Shown here in pieces: positions 1 through 40,234 of a DNA stretch of 64,000 nt. Position 1 is the first letter of the stretch; every line of letters starts with the position of its first letter. This stretch comes from Chaetoceros tenuissimus (Eukaryota > Bacillariophyta > Thalassiosirophyceae > Chaetocerotales > Chaetocerotaceae): positions 434,001-498,000 of the forward strand of contig BLLK01000062.1 of NCBI GenBank assembly GCA_021927905.1, read 5' to 3'. The notes below the pieces were generated by a model. It saw only the letters and a list, made by a program, of their open reading frames with translations. It searched no databases and was not told the origin of the DNA. Made by a program: the position numbers and the translations under genes.

Positions 1-1133
1 ATAGTGCGACTTTGCCGAAGGAGAGAGAAGAAGATCATGACATTGCTGAGAAATCTATTCAACCCAATCATACCAATACCGAATATCAATTTGCGAACAC
101 ATTTATTGAAGAGCAACATGCCATTATGAGCACGATCAAACTTTCAGCAAAGACAACAAACCATTCGCCTCAACAGCTAGCTAGCACCTCCACTGATGTT
201 ATGAATGTAAGTGATGATCAAGGGGACGCAAAATCTATGTGTGATTCAACAAATTTGGAGCAGACCTTCAAGCCAATCCATTTCAAAAAAACAAAGGACG
301 AAGTAGGCTTTCTAAAGGTCAAAGAGATCATTCATGGTATGATGGATGAAGGAGTAGAAGATCCCCAGAAGGAATTCTTCAAAAAGCACCCATCTTTAGC
401 AAACAAGTACGAGAAAGGTAGTATAAGACGTGGTGTTCACTCGTTCTGCAGAAACTATAATATCAAGAAGGCTAATGAAGAAAAGAAGAAGCAATCACTT
501 CTCCTTGTGCAGGAGAAACAAGGAATGCTTCATGCCAAGGCTAAGATTGGACTTGAGAAGTACTGTTCCTCTCTCAAGACTTCCGTGTCTTCTCCGGAAG
601 TTGAAGGAAAGATCCAAGCTGATGACAAGACCAAGCTCGAGGGAGCTATCGATGAGACTCTTCAGTGGCTTGACTCCAATCATTTTGCAGAGAAGGAAGA
701 GTTCGAGGAGAAGCAGAATACACTTGAGGCAATCGCTGCACCGTTGTTTGAATATTTGAAGGCTTTAGACACTAAAAAGTGCGTTGTCAATGAAGATACA
801 AATTTCACGCATCAATATGCCGATGAAAATGCATTATCAGAACAGAGCAAGCCTATCCAAATCACTGAGTTTGACAAGTTCCTCGAGGACAAGGCAAAAT
901 CACTAGCAGAATGGATCTTAGTTGAAATCATCAAAATTAATTCTGCAAATGTCAGGTCGAAATGCAAGGAGTATGCTGATGAGCTCATCAAGCTTGGATT
1001 CTACGACAAAGAGATGATGAAGAACTTTTGCACAGTCGAGATAATTGATTCCGAGGATTTTACATCATTCATGAAATTGGCGCATCGTCTGTCTTTGAAG
1101 AAATGGTTGTTGGAGCATGGGGCATCCAAGTGA
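1..1133 (+). CDS. 3' part of a repeat-domain protein, partial at left edge
   Basis: The frame is open to the first base, so the gene begins left of the window; what is visible is about 376 codons ending in TGA. It aligns collinearly, without an indel, to 22872-24004, the last third of the two-exon gene at 19634-24004. It carries one copy of the ~70-residue unit with the W-less core KVKEIIHGMMDEGVEDP (about nt 270-480), a charged helical stretch, and a C-terminal ~90-residue helical module ending KKWLLEHGASK that looks SAM-like. The function is not recognised. The absence of indels over 1.1 kb suggests a recent or selected duplicate. The similarity continues into the 3' flank to about 1815. 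Confidence 0.75.
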   Translation, partial: SATLPKEREEDHDIAEKSIQPNHTNTEYQFANTFIEEQHAIMSTIKLSAKTTNHSPQQLASTSTDVMNVSDDQGDAKSMCDSTNLEQTFKPIHFKKTKDEVGFLKVKEIIHGMMDEGVEDPQKEFFKKHPSLANKYEKGSIRRGVHSFCRNYNIKKANEEKKKQSLLLVQEKQGMLHAKAKIGLEKYCSSLKTSVSSPEVEGKIQADDKTKLEGAIDETLQWLDSNHFAEKEEFEEKQNTLEAIAAPLFEYLKALDTKKCVVNEDTNFTHQYADENALSEQSKPIQITEFDKFLEDKAKSLAEWILVEIIKINSANVRSKCKEYADELIKLGFYDKEMMKNFCTVEIIDSEDFTSFMKLAHRLSLKKWLLEHGASK

Positions 1134-18054: not shown

Positions 18055-19633
18055 GTTGGGCTTTGTGATGGAATGACTTCATGCCGCTAACTGTGGACTG
18101 TGGACTGAGATGCCTTGAAGCTACAGTACAGCTCTCTAATGTCTCACAGTCAACTGTTTCCCGTAACCTATTATTTCCGAATGAAATTCGTTGGTTTTGA
18201 TATTATTTTGCAATAATATCAAGACTCCAATCATCTTTCCTTTAAATAAAACGTCCAGAACTTTTTGCTCTTTCTTTCTTTTCACATTTCTTGAAATCAT
18301 TTTTCTCTTGAAGCTAATAAGCTAATAGAAAAGAACACCTTATTTCACTCTCCTACTACCTTCGCTTTCTCGAAAAACAATGATTTTCCTATTTTTGAAG
18401 CGTCTCCTCACGAAAACCCTTCTTCATCAACTAACAATCTTTCCTCGTGAGACTCATTATTATGAATCTTGACTACATTTTGGTAGGAATCTAGCTGGCT
18501 TCTGTATTGTTGTTTGGGGAAACCGTCCTCAAATGATGATTTGCATTCTTTTCCTGGCAATGTTTGTTTTGCCAATTTTAAATGTCAACTCTATTCAATC
18601 ACATAAATGAAAGTTACATCAGAGCCGAGTTTCTTCTTATTTACTAAATACTCTTTCCCCATGTTTTTCCAACTCAGCGGGTGACAATGATCATGATCCA
18701 TGGCACTGGTGGTAATTTTGTAAAAAAGTTTAAAAAAAGAATGAGAAGACCTCTAGACCTCTACTTTTCGACTACTCTACAATGGCAAAATTCTACGTCA
18801 TCCATGGGATTGCTGTTGTTTGGAAAAATCAGGAATGATGTGAATTAATTTTTCAACTCTTCCAATTTATTGAAAATAAAAATGCCTCTTTCTCATCATT
18901 CGTCTTGTCTAAATAGGCGCATAACCTAGTAGAACATTGAAAAAGTCGTAGGAACCGATGATTCTTCATAACTCTCTTCTTCTTTTGACCGCTATCCGAC
19001 TATCGCTTGAAATATTATTACAAGGCAATGACTTTCAGTTTTGAGTTCACATAACATGAACATGAACTTGAACATGAAAGGGTGTCGGAGCAACAACTGA
19101 AATTCTATATCTTGAAATCACATACATTCTTCTGACATAGTACCCATTTGCATTAGCCTCTACCCTTTACTTCTTATGATAGCTACAAACCATAAATATA
19201 TTTTTATAAAATTGTATTTATTCTAGAATCTAGAATGTTCAGGTACTATTGTTGTTGTACAATTTCTCATTTTAGAAATTAATACAAAATGAAAAACCAA
19301 TTCCTGTGAAAGAGGCCTTTTGACGTCCTTGCCTTCTGCTTTTTCGTCGTTACGAAAGATCCACATAACACATCCATCATGAAAGCAAGAAATGAAGCAA
19401 TTCAACTCCTCCTATCTTGAGTTCAATAGAATACTACATATCAGTCTAACCAGAATATTACCAGTACGCATATACGATAGATATACATTTGTACCATTAG
19501 CGTTTAGAGGGACGAGGGCGGCAGCAGTGAACAAGCAAGTCATCCAAGTTTCATTACGTACAGATTGCATCCATCAAAAGAAGGATAACTCGCTCGTCAT
19601 TGATATTCTTCGCATATAGGAATCAACTGAAAC
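18055..19633. other. Long intergenic stretch, no gene seen
   Basis: About 1.6 kb of AT-rich sequence between the start of the LRR gene (minus) and the start of the large two-exon gene (plus). Open stretches are short and lack protein-like composition. Promoters for both divergent genes must lie here. No repeats stand out. Confidence 0.45.
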
Positions 19634-22600
19634 ATGTCATCTACCGCCTATTCAGAGCTCAAAAGAGCAACTCAGTCTCTTTTTGATCAAAACCTAGAGC
19701 CGACTTTCGAAGCATTTCAATACTACTTCCCACATGTTATCAAGGACGAGATGCAGTTTTCATCTGTTACAATGAAAGTGGATTGGTTCAAACACAAACA
19801 TATAGAAACAGAGAGGCAGAAAGGCATCGATGTGACTTTGGTTCCTTTTCAAAGGCCAGTAACTGATACGGCTACTCACAAGAAATCTAGGAAAATAGCA
19901 GCTAATCGTGTGAGCCTATCACCGAGAAATGAAGATATATCCAATGCCTCACATCGCGGATGCAATGACGACGTAGAGAGACACGTTGCGGATGTAGCTC
20001 TAGGATCTGTGCATGAAGGGGGGTGCGATAGAGAGAGTATGACTATGCAAGAGAAGGACACATGTTGCAAGAGAAAGTTGAGAAAGATTTCTCTCGATTC
20101 TTCAACTGTATCTTTTGCTCCACGTGAATCCACTGAAGAAGAATCGATTGCTCCAAACAAAACAGAGGTTAAAGAATCATCGAGTGAATCTAGGGGAAAT
20201 GATTGTAATAAAGTACTTGATGCTAGTCTGACTACTTTACCCATCAAGAAGAGAAAATTTCATATGCTTCCCAGCAATTCTACTCGGCCATTGGATGAAA
20301 GCGAATCAGTTGAAGCGGTTGCTGATCTAGAAATGCAAACAGTTTCACAGTCACAAAGAAATTCTTTCACAGTTATAGATGAAGGTGTACTTTCTTCCTT
20401 TAGTGAACGGAGAAATATCGAGAAACTTCGTGGCACTCTGACAAAATCTCCGAATGAACAAGAGGCGGAAAAGGGGGTTCGTCCAGTAACACCAACAGAT
20501 GATGAGTCATCGCTAGGTTCCAGGAGAGGTCAAGCTTCGGAGACACAAGATGCATCTGTCAAGAAAAGAAAGGATCACGAGGCTAGTAATCACGACCAAG
20601 ATGAACTTGGAAAGCATCAACAGATACGCAAGAAGACCAAACTTCGTATCAAGATTTCAAAACCTCACATGAAGAAAAAGCAGCTCGATAAGATTTCTGC
20701 AGATAATTCTATTGTGAATACGGAGGCTCCTATGAAGGAAGGCCCTTCTCGTACTTCAAATGCTTGTGTAGTTTCAATTGCAGCTTCGAGATCAAAAAAG
20801 TCTGAAACAGCAAGCGCAGGAAGCATCTGTTCTGAAAATAATATCGAAATGGCCAAAGATGATTTATTAGACTCTTCGTTTCTACTGAGAAAGGAAAGTG
20901 CAAACTCTACTTTGTCCGCAAGCGGATATGAAAAACAACTAGGCACCTTGATCAATGACCCAATGCTAAAGTCTAGTAAGGACGAAGAAAGAAATATGAA
21001 AGCTACCTCAAATCATCAGCAGAAGACCGCGAGCAGCATTTCGAATGTAAGTACATTTAGTTTTGATCATTCGTGCACATCTCTACAAGCTCTCAATCTG
21101 AATGACCTTTGTCAATCTAATTCTATTATCGCTGCTAATAACTCAAATCTCCCATAGTCTCGACACGCTAGACTAAACGCAGACCATAGAACAGCCAATT
21201 CAAACCCACTAACGCAACAACATCACTTGCAACAATTGATGTCGTCATACCAACAGGCTGTAGCTACATATCATGTAGATGTTGTACACCCAATGATCTC
21301 AAGAGTTGAAGAGGACACAACTAAGCATCAGCATATTGATGTCCAGAATATACTTCAAGATGAAGCTGAAGCAGAAAACACATGTAATTCTACCAGTATT
21401 TCAAATCCTGAGGTGCTTGAATGTGATGATTCATTGAAGGCATGTCTAGGTACAAATACCATTCATGTAGAGTTGCCATCAAAGCCTATCCGTTTCTTGA
21501 AAGCAAATGACGAAGAAGGGTACAAGAAAGTCAAGGAGATCATTGAAGGAATGGTCGATAGAGGAATCCAACAGCCGGGAATCGAGTTCTATGAAAAGTA
21601 CCCAGATCTGACAAGCAAGTATGAGAAACAAAGTCTAGGAAAAGGAATTTCTTATTTTTCTACTAGATACAAGGCTAAGAAGGATGCTTTAGTAGGAAGC
21701 AAGGACTCGTCTTCACCTGTTGAGGACGATGCCTCTAAACATCATGATGTAAAAAATGCTGCTCTTCAAAATGAAACTCAAACACAATATTCTTTTGATG
21801 CAGCTATGGGATTGAATGAAGAGAGAACTGTGCCAGAAAAAATGAATACTTCGCTAAGGTCTAGTCAACTTGAAAACATCTATGATTCTGATGAAGACTA
21901 TATTGCGACTTTGCCGAAGGAAAGAGCAGAAATCTATGACATGGCTGGGAGGTCTATTCAACCTAATCACACAAATACTGAGTTTCAATTTGCAAACAAA
22001 GCTACAACGGCAACAACCAATTCGCCTCAACGACTAACTGCAATTGCTGAAATAGTTCGTAGGTCCAAGGCAAAGAAAGCAGCCACGGAATGGAAACAAC
22101 AGTCAATATCACATCCTCAAGACGAAGCAAGAAAGAGGCTTCTTATCCCTTTCAAAAAATGGAATGATGAAGAAGAATACATGAAGGTCAAGGAAATCAT
22201 TGAAGGAATGATGGATGAAGGCACCCGACATCCAGCTAGAAAGTTCTACAAAAAGTATCCAGAGCTAACAAGCAAGTATGAGAAACAAAGTCTATCAAGA
22301 GGAATTTCTCGGTTTTGTACTAATCACACGGCTAAGAAGAATGCTCTTTTACCGCAAAACAAGGACTCATCTTCACCTATTGAGGACGATGCGTCTAAAC
22401 ATCCGCATATTGATGATTCATTGAAGGCATGTCTAGGTACAGATCCCGTGCATGTCGAGTTGCCATCCAAGCCTATCCATTTCACAAAAGCAAATGACGA
22501 AGAAGGGTACATGAAGGTAAAGAGGATAATCGAAGGAATGGTCGATAAAGGAATCCAACAGCCGGGAATCGAGTTCTACGAAAAGTATCCAGATCTGACA

Positions 22601-24004
22601 AGCAAGTATGAGAGAAAAAGTCTAACAAATAGGATTTCTACGTTTTCTACTAAATACAAGGCTAAGAAGGATGCTTTACTAGGAAGGAAGGACTCGTCTT
22701 CCACTGTTCATGACGATGTCTCTAACCATCAGCAAATGGAGGTAAAAGATGCTACCCTTCAAGATGAAGGTGATATACAAACTTCATGTGATGCAGCCAT
22801 GAGATTGAATGAGCAGAATACTATGGAAAAGTCTAGTCAACTTGAAAACATCCATTATTCTGATCAAGACTATAGTGCGACTTTGCCGAAGGAGAGAGAA
22901 GAAGATCATGACATTGCTGAGAAATCTATTCAACCCAATCATACCAATACCGAATATCAATTTGCGAACAAATCTATTGAAGAGCAAGATGCCATTATGA
23001 GCATGATCAAACTTTCAGCAACAACAACCACGAATTCGCCTCAACAGCTAGCTAGCACCTCCACTGCTGTAATGAACGCAAGTGATGATCAAGGAGACGC
23101 AAAATCTATGTGTGATTCCACAAATTTGGAGCAGACCTTCAAGCCAATCCATTTCAAAAAAACAAAGGACGAAGTAGGCTTTTTAAAGGTGAAAGAAATT
23201 ATTCATGGTATGATGGATGAAGGAGTCGAAGATCCACAGAAGGAATTCTTCAAAAAGCACCCATCTTTCGCAAACAAGTACGAGAAACGAAGTTTACAAC
23301 TTGGTGTTCATTCTTTCTGCAGAAATTACAAAACCAAGAAGGCTAACGAGGAAAAGTATAAACAATCACGAATCCTAGTGCAAGAGAAACGGGAACTGCT
23401 TCGTGTCGAGGCTGAGAATGGACTTGAGAACTACTGCCACTCTCTCAAGACTTCCATCTCTTCTCCGGAAGTTGAAGGAAAGATCCAAGGTGATGACAAG
23501 ACCAAGCTCGAGGGAGCTATCGATGAGACGCTTCAGTGGATTGACTCCAATCATTTTGCAGAGAAGGAAGAGTTCGAGGAGAAGCAGAAGGTAATAGAGG
23601 CAATCGCTGCACCATTGTTTGAATATCTGAAGGCGTTAGAGACTGAAAAATACGTTGACAATGAAGAACCAAAGTCCACACATCAATGTATTGATGAAAT
23701 TGCATCATCAGAGCAGAACAAGCCTATCGAAATCATCGAGTTTGACAAGTTCCCCGAAAACAAGGCAACATCACTAGCAGAATGGATCTTAGTTGAAATC
23801 ATCAAATTTAATTCTGCAAATGTCAGGTCGAAATGCAAGGAGTATGCTGATGAGCTCATCAAGCTTGGATTCTACGACAAAGAGATGATGAAGAACTTTT
23901 GTACAGTTGAGATAATTGATTCCGAGGATTTTACATCATTTATGAAATTGGCGCATCGTCTGTCTTTGAAGAAATGGTTGTTGGAGCATGGGGCATCCAA
24001 TTGA
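19634..24004 (+). CDS. Large two-exon protein with four ~70-residue repeats and a SAM-like end
   Basis: Exon 1 19634-21046 starts at ATG (MSSTAYSELKRATQSLFDQN). The proposed intron 21047-21157 opens GTAAGT and closes CCCATAG, is 111 bp and phase 0. Exon 2 is 21158-24004. The spliced product is about 1419 residues. Read unspliced, the only stop between the two halves is the TAG that forms the acceptor itself. Exon 1 encodes a charged, Ser-rich region with a basic KKTKLRIKISKPHMKKKQ patch. Exon 2 encodes four units around KVKEIIEGMVDRGIQQPG (residues ~579-652, 798-868, 909-978, 1132-1202), two copies of a LENI..S..DY.ATLPKER linker, and a C-terminal SAM-like helical module. The repeats look like helical, possibly DNA-binding, units, but no family is recognised. 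The 3' third is duplicated at 1-1133. Confidence 0.75.
21047..21157 (+). other. Predicted 111-bp intron ending in an in-frame TAG
   Basis: Donor AAT|GTAAGT, acceptor CCCATAG|TCT. It is a multiple of three and in phase 0, so retention would add 36 residues and then terminate at the acceptor triplet. The two flanking frames are the same, which supports a single gene. Confidence 0.7.
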
Positions 24005-37924: not shown

Positions 37925-39868
37925 TCAAAATACAGCGTTCGTTATGCTCCCAATCAATACGTCTTTCCGCAGCCCCCGCTTGCTCTTGATCTTTACTCTA
38001 CATAATGGACATTCCTTGCCACTCTTGCTAATTGCCTGCTGAATGCATCGGTAACAGAACCGATGCCCACATTCAGGATTGATGTATGGATTATCAAACG
38101 GATCTAGACAAATTGGACATTCCAATTCCGCCTTCAATCCCTCTGACATGTCTTGTATCTCTTTCAACTTTTCAATGCTATAGTGTTGTTCTTCAGTTTT
38201 CTTCTGAAGTAAAGTCTTTTCTTCTTCAAGCTGCATAATACCTTCGCTTTGCTGTTGAGCTTTCATCTTATAATCATTGTTCTCTTGCTCTAGTCTCCTA
38301 AGTTTCTCTCTCATGCCTTCAGTTTTTTTCCAATACTCATGTTTCTCTTGCTCTAGTCTCATCAGATTCATCCTCATTTCGTCAGTCTTTTTCCAATACT
38401 CTTGTTTCTCTTGCTCTAGTCTCATCAGATTCATCCTCATTTCGTCAGTATTTTTCCAATACTCTTGTTTCTCTTGCTTTAGTCTCATCAGATTCATCCT
38501 CATTTCGTCAGTCTTTTTGCTATACTCATTCTTCTCTTCTTCAAGCTTCTTCAATCTCTTACTATGATTGCAAATTTGAACTTCACAAATATCTTCTCTT
38601 GGTCGTTTACGGTTTTCTTCGATTGCTGGAGATTTGACTTGATTGTGTGTCCTAATCTGCTCATGATTCGGTTTATTGATTTCCTTTCCAACACCATGAT
38701 GTTTCATTCTTATCTTTCTTGTTTCATTACTTGGAGGTGGTTGGTATTCGATCATGGACCAAACAAATCCAATAGATTCAAGTAGTTTGATTCGTTCTTT
38801 TGTTAGTGGAGTTGGAAGTCCTTTCAACATGTTTTTATATTGAGAACGTTGATGCTGTACCCAACTCCCGAGTTGATGAGGTTCATAGGACTTTGGAACT
38901 TTGCAATGTCCATGCTTTTCTTTGTATCGTTTCAGCACATCAAATGAATCATACCAATTGTAATCATCGGACCAAACAAATCCAATATCATCGAGCTTTT
39001 CGATACGTTCTTGCGACAATGTTAAATTTCTATATTGACAATGTTGAGTATTTACCCAATTGGCAAGTGGTTGATTCTCCCCATATGTTCTTGGTACATT
39101 GCAATGTCCATGCTTTAGCTTGTATAATTTCAGTTCTTCAAGTCTATCATTCCAAACATTGACATTTGGTTTTGGTCCCGGTGGTGCTTTCCAGCTGAAA
39201 CCGATAGCATTGAGCTTTTCGACACGTTCTTTCGACAATGTTGAATTATTATATTGAGAACGTTGTCTGTGTACCCATTTAGCAAGGGGTTGATTCTCTT
39301 TATACGCAGCTGGTACATTGCAATCGCCATGCTTTGATTTGTAAAGTTTCAGTGCTTCAAATTTAGTACACCAAAAATCATCTTTTGGTTTTGGCAGCGG
39401 TGGTGCTTTCCAACTGAACCCGATAGCATTGAGCTTTTTGATATGTTCTTCTGAGATATTCAATTTTCTATATTGTTTTCGTTGAGTGTGTACCCAATTA
39501 TCAAGTGGTAGATTCTCCGCATATATTTTTGGTACATTACAATCACCATGCTTTGACTTGTAAAATTTCAGCTGTTCAAGCCTATCATTCCAAACATCAT
39601 CTTTTGGTTTTGACGGTGTTTTCCAACTGAAACTGATAGCATCAAGCTTTTTGATACGTTCTTCTGGCAGTTTTAATTTTTCATTTTGAGAACGTTGTCT
39701 ATGCACCCAACTATAAAGTGATTGATTCTCCTTGTATGTAGTTGGCACATTGCAATTTCCATGTTTCTCCTTGTATTTACATAGTTCTTGAAATTTGTTG
39801 AGCCAAGCCATATTATTCTTTTCGGATTGCCGAAAACTATCATCTGCTCTTTTCAGTTTAGGAATCAT
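37925..39868 (-). CDS. Helicase-associated (HA) repeat and RING-finger protein
   Basis: The first in-frame ATG on the minus strand is at 39868 (MIPKLKRADDSFRQSEKNN); upstream the frame runs into a TAG without another ATG. 647 residues. Five HA domains in a row (~residues 15-400), each with the W....L..YK.KHG.CNVP core and a downstream WVH.QR motif. A coiled coil follows, built from four ~21-residue repeats of EYWKKTDEMRMNLMRLEQEK (nt ~38290-38530). A C-terminal C3HC4 RING has CPICLDPF, CGHRFCYRC and CPLCR (~residues 580-625). HA domains are common in algal proteins and may bind nucleic acid; the RING suggests E3 ubiquitin ligase activity. Both are family inferences. Confidence 0.88.
   Translation of the reverse strand: MIPKLKRADDSFRQSEKNNMAWLNKFQELCKYKEKHGNCNVPTTYKENQSLYSWVHRQRSQNEKLKLPEERIKKLDAISFSWKTPSKPKDDVWNDRLEQLKFYKSKHGDCNVPKIYAENLPLDNWVHTQRKQYRKLNISEEHIKKLNAIGFSWKAPPLPKPKDDFWCTKFEALKLYKSKHGDCNVPAAYKENQPLAKWVHRQRSQYNNSTLSKERVEKLNAIGFSWKAPPGPKPNVNVWNDRLEELKLYKLKHGHCNVPRTYGENQPLANWVNTQHCQYRNLTLSQERIEKLDDIGFVWSDDYNWYDSFDVLKRYKEKHGHCKVPKSYEPHQLGSWVQHQRSQYKNMLKGLPTPLTKERIKLLESIGFVWSMIEYQPPPSNETRKIRMKHHGVGKEINKPNHEQIRTHNQVKSPAIEENRKRPREDICEVQICNHSKRLKKLEEEKNEYSKKTDEMRMNLMRLKQEKQEYWKNTDEMRMNLMRLEQEKQEYWKKTDEMRMNLMRLEQEKHEYWKKTEGMREKLRRLEQENNDYKMKAQQQSEGIMQLEEEKTLLQKKTEEQHYSIEKLKEIQDMSEGLKAELECPICLDPFDNPYINPECGHRFCYRCIQQAISKSGKECPLCRVKIKSKRGLRKDVLIGSITNAVF
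38290..38530 (-). repeat. 63-bp coding repeats in the coiled coil
   Basis: Four near-identical units of 63 bp encoding 21 residues with the core TDEMRMNLMRLEQEKQEYWK. The multiple of three keeps the frame of the HA/RING gene. Confidence 0.85.
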
Positions 39869-40234
39869 GTTTTCGTCTAGGGGAAACAATTTCTTTTTTA
39901 TCAATAGACTCAGATGAAGATTGAGATTCTTCTTTGTATCGCTATACAAAAAGCTATTGAAAAGTAAACAACAGTACCTTTCCTAAGAAGCTAAGAAGTA
40001 ACTCTCAGGGCTAGTTACCACCTACGTACGTAGACTAGTAGATCAATCTATAAAAATGAGAAAAATACACATCTTGACACCTGTCAAAATTCAAAATGAC
40101 TCCAAGTAGAAGTCATCATCATCATTTCCTTGACACCGTTAGGACATTTTAACAATTCTGTTTTGATCTCTCTTGAACAAAATAGAGCATATCAAAAGTA
40201 CACAAAGATATGCAAAAGATACCGCTAGATCCAA
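39869..40234. promoter_or_regulatory. Divergent intergenic region
   Basis: 366 bp between the HA/RING gene (minus) and the peroxidase-like gene (plus), with TACGTACGTAG at about 40023-40033 as the only notable motif. Both promoters are expected here. Confidence 0.35.

Follow-up and report, generated by a model that had tools for sequence, protein, structure and literature searches.

The gene under study is located on the forward strand of a 64,000-nucleotide stretch of the Chaetoceros tenuissimus genome (the window, C48:434001-498000). Exon 1 (19634..21046, 471 codons) starts with an ATG at 19634 and encodes a divergent N-terminal repeat, followed by a Ser-rich and basic region of low constraint, whereas exon 2 (21158..24004) comprises 948 codons plus the stop. 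The intervening sequence (21047..21157) is a predicted 111-bp spliceosomal intron of phase 0 that runs GTAAGT...CCCATAG, with the GT at 21047 and the AG of the terminal TAG ending at 21157, and without an in-frame stop ahead of this acceptor TAG. By sequence it has the features of a U2-type intron, namely GT...AG ends, a conserved position and a reading frame that is kept once it is removed. The exon, intron and stop coordinates of an earlier sequence-only reading, together with the 111-bp length, the phase and the TAG acceptor, are exact to the base, as are the 1419 codons of the spliced product (471 + 948) and the 507 of the intron-retained form, both of which were recomputed. The frame within the intron is open for 36 codons before the TAG, which is only mildly unusual, as a frame this open arises in 16.6% of 20,000 trials with a shuffled intron interior.

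A search of the genome (41.03 Mb, 68 contigs) places exon 1 at eight sites, comprising three on C48 (tandem copies A and B and the window copy), two on C16 (genes Y and X), one each on C34 and C54, and a small duplicated piece within copy A. In five copies (A, B, window, Y and X) a GTAAGT...AG stretch occupies the same place. The intron is 111 bp and identical across the three C48 copies, 111 bp and 76% identical in gene Y, where the acceptor is AAAG, and 77 bp in gene X, given an acceptor picked by eye from the alignment. Whatever acceptor is picked, the two open frames flanking the gene X intron are out of phase and splicing is therefore required to join them; we consider this mismatch the strongest single argument for splicing. 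In addition, a single stop-to-stop frame of 983 codons in the C34 paralog encodes the N-terminal repeat together with three more repeats and the C-terminal domain; the similarity of this paralog to exon 1 spans residues 4-92 (E=4.8e-9). In the C54 relative a likely intron, read by eye as GTAAGA...CAG, is of phase 1 and interrupts the gene at a different place. An in-frame stop between the frames might also be expected of two separate same-phase genes with independent products, a reading that we regard as highly improbable, given that a single frame of the C34 paralog covers both ends of the protein and that the gene X frames can be joined only by splicing. Indeed, the shared intron site, the phase of gene X and the single C34 frame support the initial proposal of a single gene, and the 111-bp intron that very probably joins the two frames is small and ordinary.

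The same reading had suggested that splicing acts as a switch between a short and a long product. This is not supported by the paralogs, since the intron codon at which retention would end translation varies among the copies. It is codon 37, the acceptor TAG, in the three C48 copies, codon 4 (TAA) in gene Y and codon 11 (TGA) in gene X. Thus, no particular short tail is kept, and neither a conserved stop nor a conserved tail, as would mark a regulated switch, is found in the retained forms of the C48 copies, Y and X. Regulated retention, yielding a functional 507-residue short form beside the 1419-residue long form, would be in keeping with an intron that is a multiple of three in length, open up to its acceptor TAG and identical in the three C48 copies. 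However, this identity reflects a very recent duplication and not necessarily selection; the 5' flank, exon 1 and intron of the window copy and copy B differ by two bases and one edge gap in 1758 columns. Moreover, the donor GTAAGT is consensus-like, any phase-0 intron of 3n length that ends in TAG yields such a stop by construction, and TAG acceptors are present in other introns of the genome. Introns of 76 and 71 bp, both GTAAGT...TAG, are inferred in two of its Hsp70 genes (three loci tried, nine donor words admitted); the locus L046 gave a single match, hence no intron, and the L047 intron is the most plausible of three candidates. The window intron has the same configuration as the 3n phase-0 TAG-acceptor introns of Yarrowia, which, in the portion of that study considered here, stop at the TAG if not earlier, with 93.7% of the 3n introns there containing a stop in frame (PMC2911113). 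We therefore give the regulated switch very little credence; retention would rather lead to a truncated product only, probably a target of surveillance.

The four repeats that had been noted in the protein were found by profile search, each of ~65-70 residues, at 21485..21679 (R1), 22142..22336 (R2), 22472..22666 (R3) and 23144..23338 (R4), all on the forward strand. For comparison with known families, a profile of 33 units was assembled from 38 listed (domain E up to 1e-9) by leaving out six (a close duplicate, a unit with the same sequence as window R3, another interrupted by the lid described below, an N-terminal copy and two weak units from L018) and adding window R3. The N-terminal stretch of exon 1 (19637..19744, forward strand) is probably a fifth, divergent copy. 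In those rounds of the iterated profile search that preceded the inclusion of N-terminal copies (later rounds contain such copies), it scored E=2.5 (round 1) and 5e-4 (round 2), against 0.03 and 5e-7 for its C16 relative, and the C34 match covers the same region. The best whole-sequence PDB match of the 33-unit profile, a PPIase at E=0.0024, is unconvincing, with a best domain at 0.18. ANTH appears for two of the 33 units searched singly (best E=0.0025), in a table from which cut-offs are absent, and HTH_DNAJC9 in the C34 protein (E=0.00048) falls under its cut-off. One repeat of gene Y had no relatives among GTDB genomes and viral contigs.

Between the N-terminal repeat and the intron, a basic stretch (codons 329-353, 20618..20692, forward strand) is a candidate for nuclear or nucleic-acid contact. 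It sits within the part of exon 1 that is most alike to gene Y, is partly kept in X, and has a nonsense codon in place of its first codon (329) in tandem copies A and B. Ten proteins with distantly related repeats were scanned, where two have BRCT and one WW (L017:4033-4719, L020:3478-4461 and L043:2933-4309). By analogy, the basic stretch and the occurrence of BRCT in two of these ten suggest that the window protein may have a nuclear role.

The protein terminates in a domain that is conserved across the repeat family (23768..23995, forward strand). This had been described as a SAM-like end, a designation that is not confirmed, as no SAM profile or PDB structure is among the matches listed. 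Comparison of the domain with known families and structures found none that matched, its profile had no relatives among viral contigs, and the NCBIfam search returned nothing near a cut-off. Likewise, the papers listed for diatom repeats, SAM and Hsp70 do not deal with this subject, judging by titles and the starts of abstracts. The earlier remark that no family could be named for the protein is incomplete, in that residues 1220-1288 are a fragment of an Hsp70 lid.

This lid segment (23402..23608, forward strand) corresponds to residues ~538-606 of a C16 Hsp70 gene, with 189 of 207 bases (91%) identical to C16:3648319-3648525. It was searched for in the source genome, the PDB, Pfam and NCBIfam. 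When exon 2 is the query, Hsp70 accounts for 16 of the 17 PDB sequences listed (best E=7.8e-14), with matches limited to exon-2 residues 732-827; the C-terminal part alone, at a looser threshold, gives Hsp70 in 16 of 20 listed. Pfam HSP70 passes on the gene Y lid (23.5 bits against a cut-off of 20.6) and is not called on the window's own copy. We take donor residues ~538-606 to cover the last part of helix B and the helices up to E, so that the segment has the same course as this part of the Hsp70 SBD-alpha lid (PDB 2p32, 3lof, 1ud0 and 2lmg), and helices C-E of PF00012 are present by sequence. The mapping follows the lid helix scheme in the consulted part of PMC3696110. In contrast to a whole Hsp70, the window protein has no ATPase domain, with no Pfam Hsp70 match to PF00012 in exon 1 or exon 2. 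It also lacks the start of the lid and the beta-sandwich peptide-binding subdomain, the match beginning past the pocket at donor residue ~538, as well as an EEVD/EEID-type tail, ending instead in the repeat family's own domain. The lid is embedded between a repeat and this other domain. Without ATPase domain, pocket and tail, the window protein cannot act as an Hsp70 chaperone.

At the protein level the lid is found at seven places in the genome, four within the repeat family (window, A, B and Y) and three within Hsp70 genes, and is 80% identical to the C16 Hsp70 and 45-46% to the other two. The C16 Hsp70 gene (3646705-3648660) is intact and encodes 650 residues, the last of which are EEID. 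Gene X (from 3649461) and then gene Y (from 3654162) lie behind it in the same orientation, and the lid of gene Y has 96.5% DNA identity to this Hsp70 gene across 200 bp. In gene X, the C-terminal domain and one repeat are present, and no lid was found. Copies B and Y share ~4 non-Hsp70 residues just ahead of the lid, as well as the 3' junction and the sequence beyond, so that a single capture event is likely on the basis of these common junctions. Comparison of the copies indicates that, after the capture, the terminal part of the last repeat disappeared from gene Y.

The window gene is part of a tandem array, and the 3' end of copy B, which starts upstream of the window and has a lid, occupies window positions 1..1133 on the forward strand. 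The blocks on C16 and C48 match together with their flanks, with 75-87% identity for sequence other than the repeats. Long stretches of the C48 copies are 99.5% identical, and the region of the window gene is 93.7% identical to that of copy B. The location of the Hsp70 gene on C16 suggests that this contig came first in the order of copying. Two further sets of repeated sequences are found on this contig. A 348-bp unit is present in ~8 repeats, 99.7-99.96% alike, upstream of copy B (C48:426997-429783) and once upstream of the window gene (window 18304-18654). Further downstream, a minus-strand open frame (37925-39982) contains degenerate direct repeats of ~500-750 bp, 71-72% alike, at 38832-39775.

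Gene Y carries a second in-frame insert (L012:6145-6690, C16:3659145-3659690), which has 89% protein identity to an open reading frame at C14:682685-683221 and closely similar DNA over the ~600 bases compared with this C14 gene. It matches no Pfam family over the cut-off. A search with this insert yields 29 places in the genome including Y, none of them on C48, so that it is absent from the window gene; the many other members would point to insertion into Y rather than out of it. The repeat family seems prone to taking in foreign segments, as far as these two cases indicate.

Constraint on the coding sequence was estimated as dN/dS by NG86 with 300 bootstraps, the ranges of which are given in brackets. 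Between the window copy and gene Y, the ratio is 0.19 (0.07-0.44) for the lid, 0.20 (0.06-0.51) for R4 over 50 codons and 0.15 (0.06-0.38) for the C-terminal domain, compared with 0.69 (0.53-0.94) for exon 1. The lid thus looks constrained between the two fused lineages, to judge from substitution patterns. It is not special in this respect, because the linker after the lid is about as low at 0.26 (0.09-0.73). Relative to the donor, the lid ratio is 0.34 (0.16-0.80) for the window copy and 0.17 (0.02-0.44) for Y. The comparisons with copy B carry little information, with 0.53 (0.22-1.30) against the donor and 0.84 (0.34-3.85) against the window copy, and show no clear constraint. Gene conversion from the Hsp70 gene to Y could inflate the apparent constraint on the lid.

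The last of these comparisons would also suit a decaying or pseudogene array in which the lid is a functionless passenger, as would the weak constraint on exon 1 (0.69). Copies A and B have the nonsense codon at exon 1 position 329 in common, which is one of the two base differences between copy B and the window copy and indicates that the array may be partly decaying. Copy A is also disrupted by an internal duplication in which the last part of exon 1, the intron and a portion of exon 2 are repeated (L009:2617-8354). Near-identical tandem copies can be mis-assembled, so that the nonsense codon common to A and B is provisional. Against decay, neither the window copy nor gene Y has an interruption of its frame once spliced, and the dN/dS intervals for lid, R4 and C-terminal domain lie below 1 between them. 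We consider a passenger lid in a dying array unlikely.

Rather, we favor with fairly high confidence an account in which the window gene is a one-intron member of a repeat family with a captured Hsp70 lid, in a block that was copied between contigs and tandemly duplicated. The family protein would consist of a divergent N-terminal repeat, a Ser-rich and basic region, four repeats and the conserved C-terminal domain, encoded with one phase-0 intron. A common ancestor of the window gene and gene Y would have gained, in frame, ~70 codons that originate in the 3' portion of a gene for a cytosolic Hsp70, the probable donor being the gene found today on C16 beside X and Y. A copy of the block would then have passed from one contig to another and multiplied in tandem on C48, in the direction and order that the location of the Hsp70 gene suggests. 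New genes assembled from pieces of other loci are described for Oryza (PMC9199173) and Drosophila yakuba (PMC5460883), and the window gene likewise contains a piece from another locus. As far as the portions of these two reports used here go, it differs from such chimeras in that the piece lies within a long exon, at a distance from any intron border, that the donor is a chaperone gene and that Y holds a second piece from yet another locus.

By analogy with Hsp70 itself, the lid helix bundle may serve a nuclear repeat protein as a self-association module or as a docking surface for Hsp70. Human Hsp70 truncated in its C-terminal part is unable to dimerise (PMC4255253), whereas oligomerisation of Hsp70 has been placed in the linker and substrate-binding domain (PMC3696110), according to the parts of these papers drawn on here. 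No lid-only Hsp70 fusion was found among the open-licence papers listed, which in one case were 8 of 325. We would only tentatively, and with rather low confidence, go on to suggest that the Hsp70 C-terminal helices are a portable module, selected within a nuclear repeat protein, where they self-associate or recruit or titrate Hsp70, in a family that is still gaining segments. To our knowledge, Hsp70 lid helices are otherwise known only as parts of whole Hsp70-type chaperones. With a probable donor and its recipients residing in one genome at 91-96.5% DNA identity, the birth of a chimeric gene, its constraint and its function become directly testable, and the same loci could show whether the Hsp70 lid bundle acts alone.
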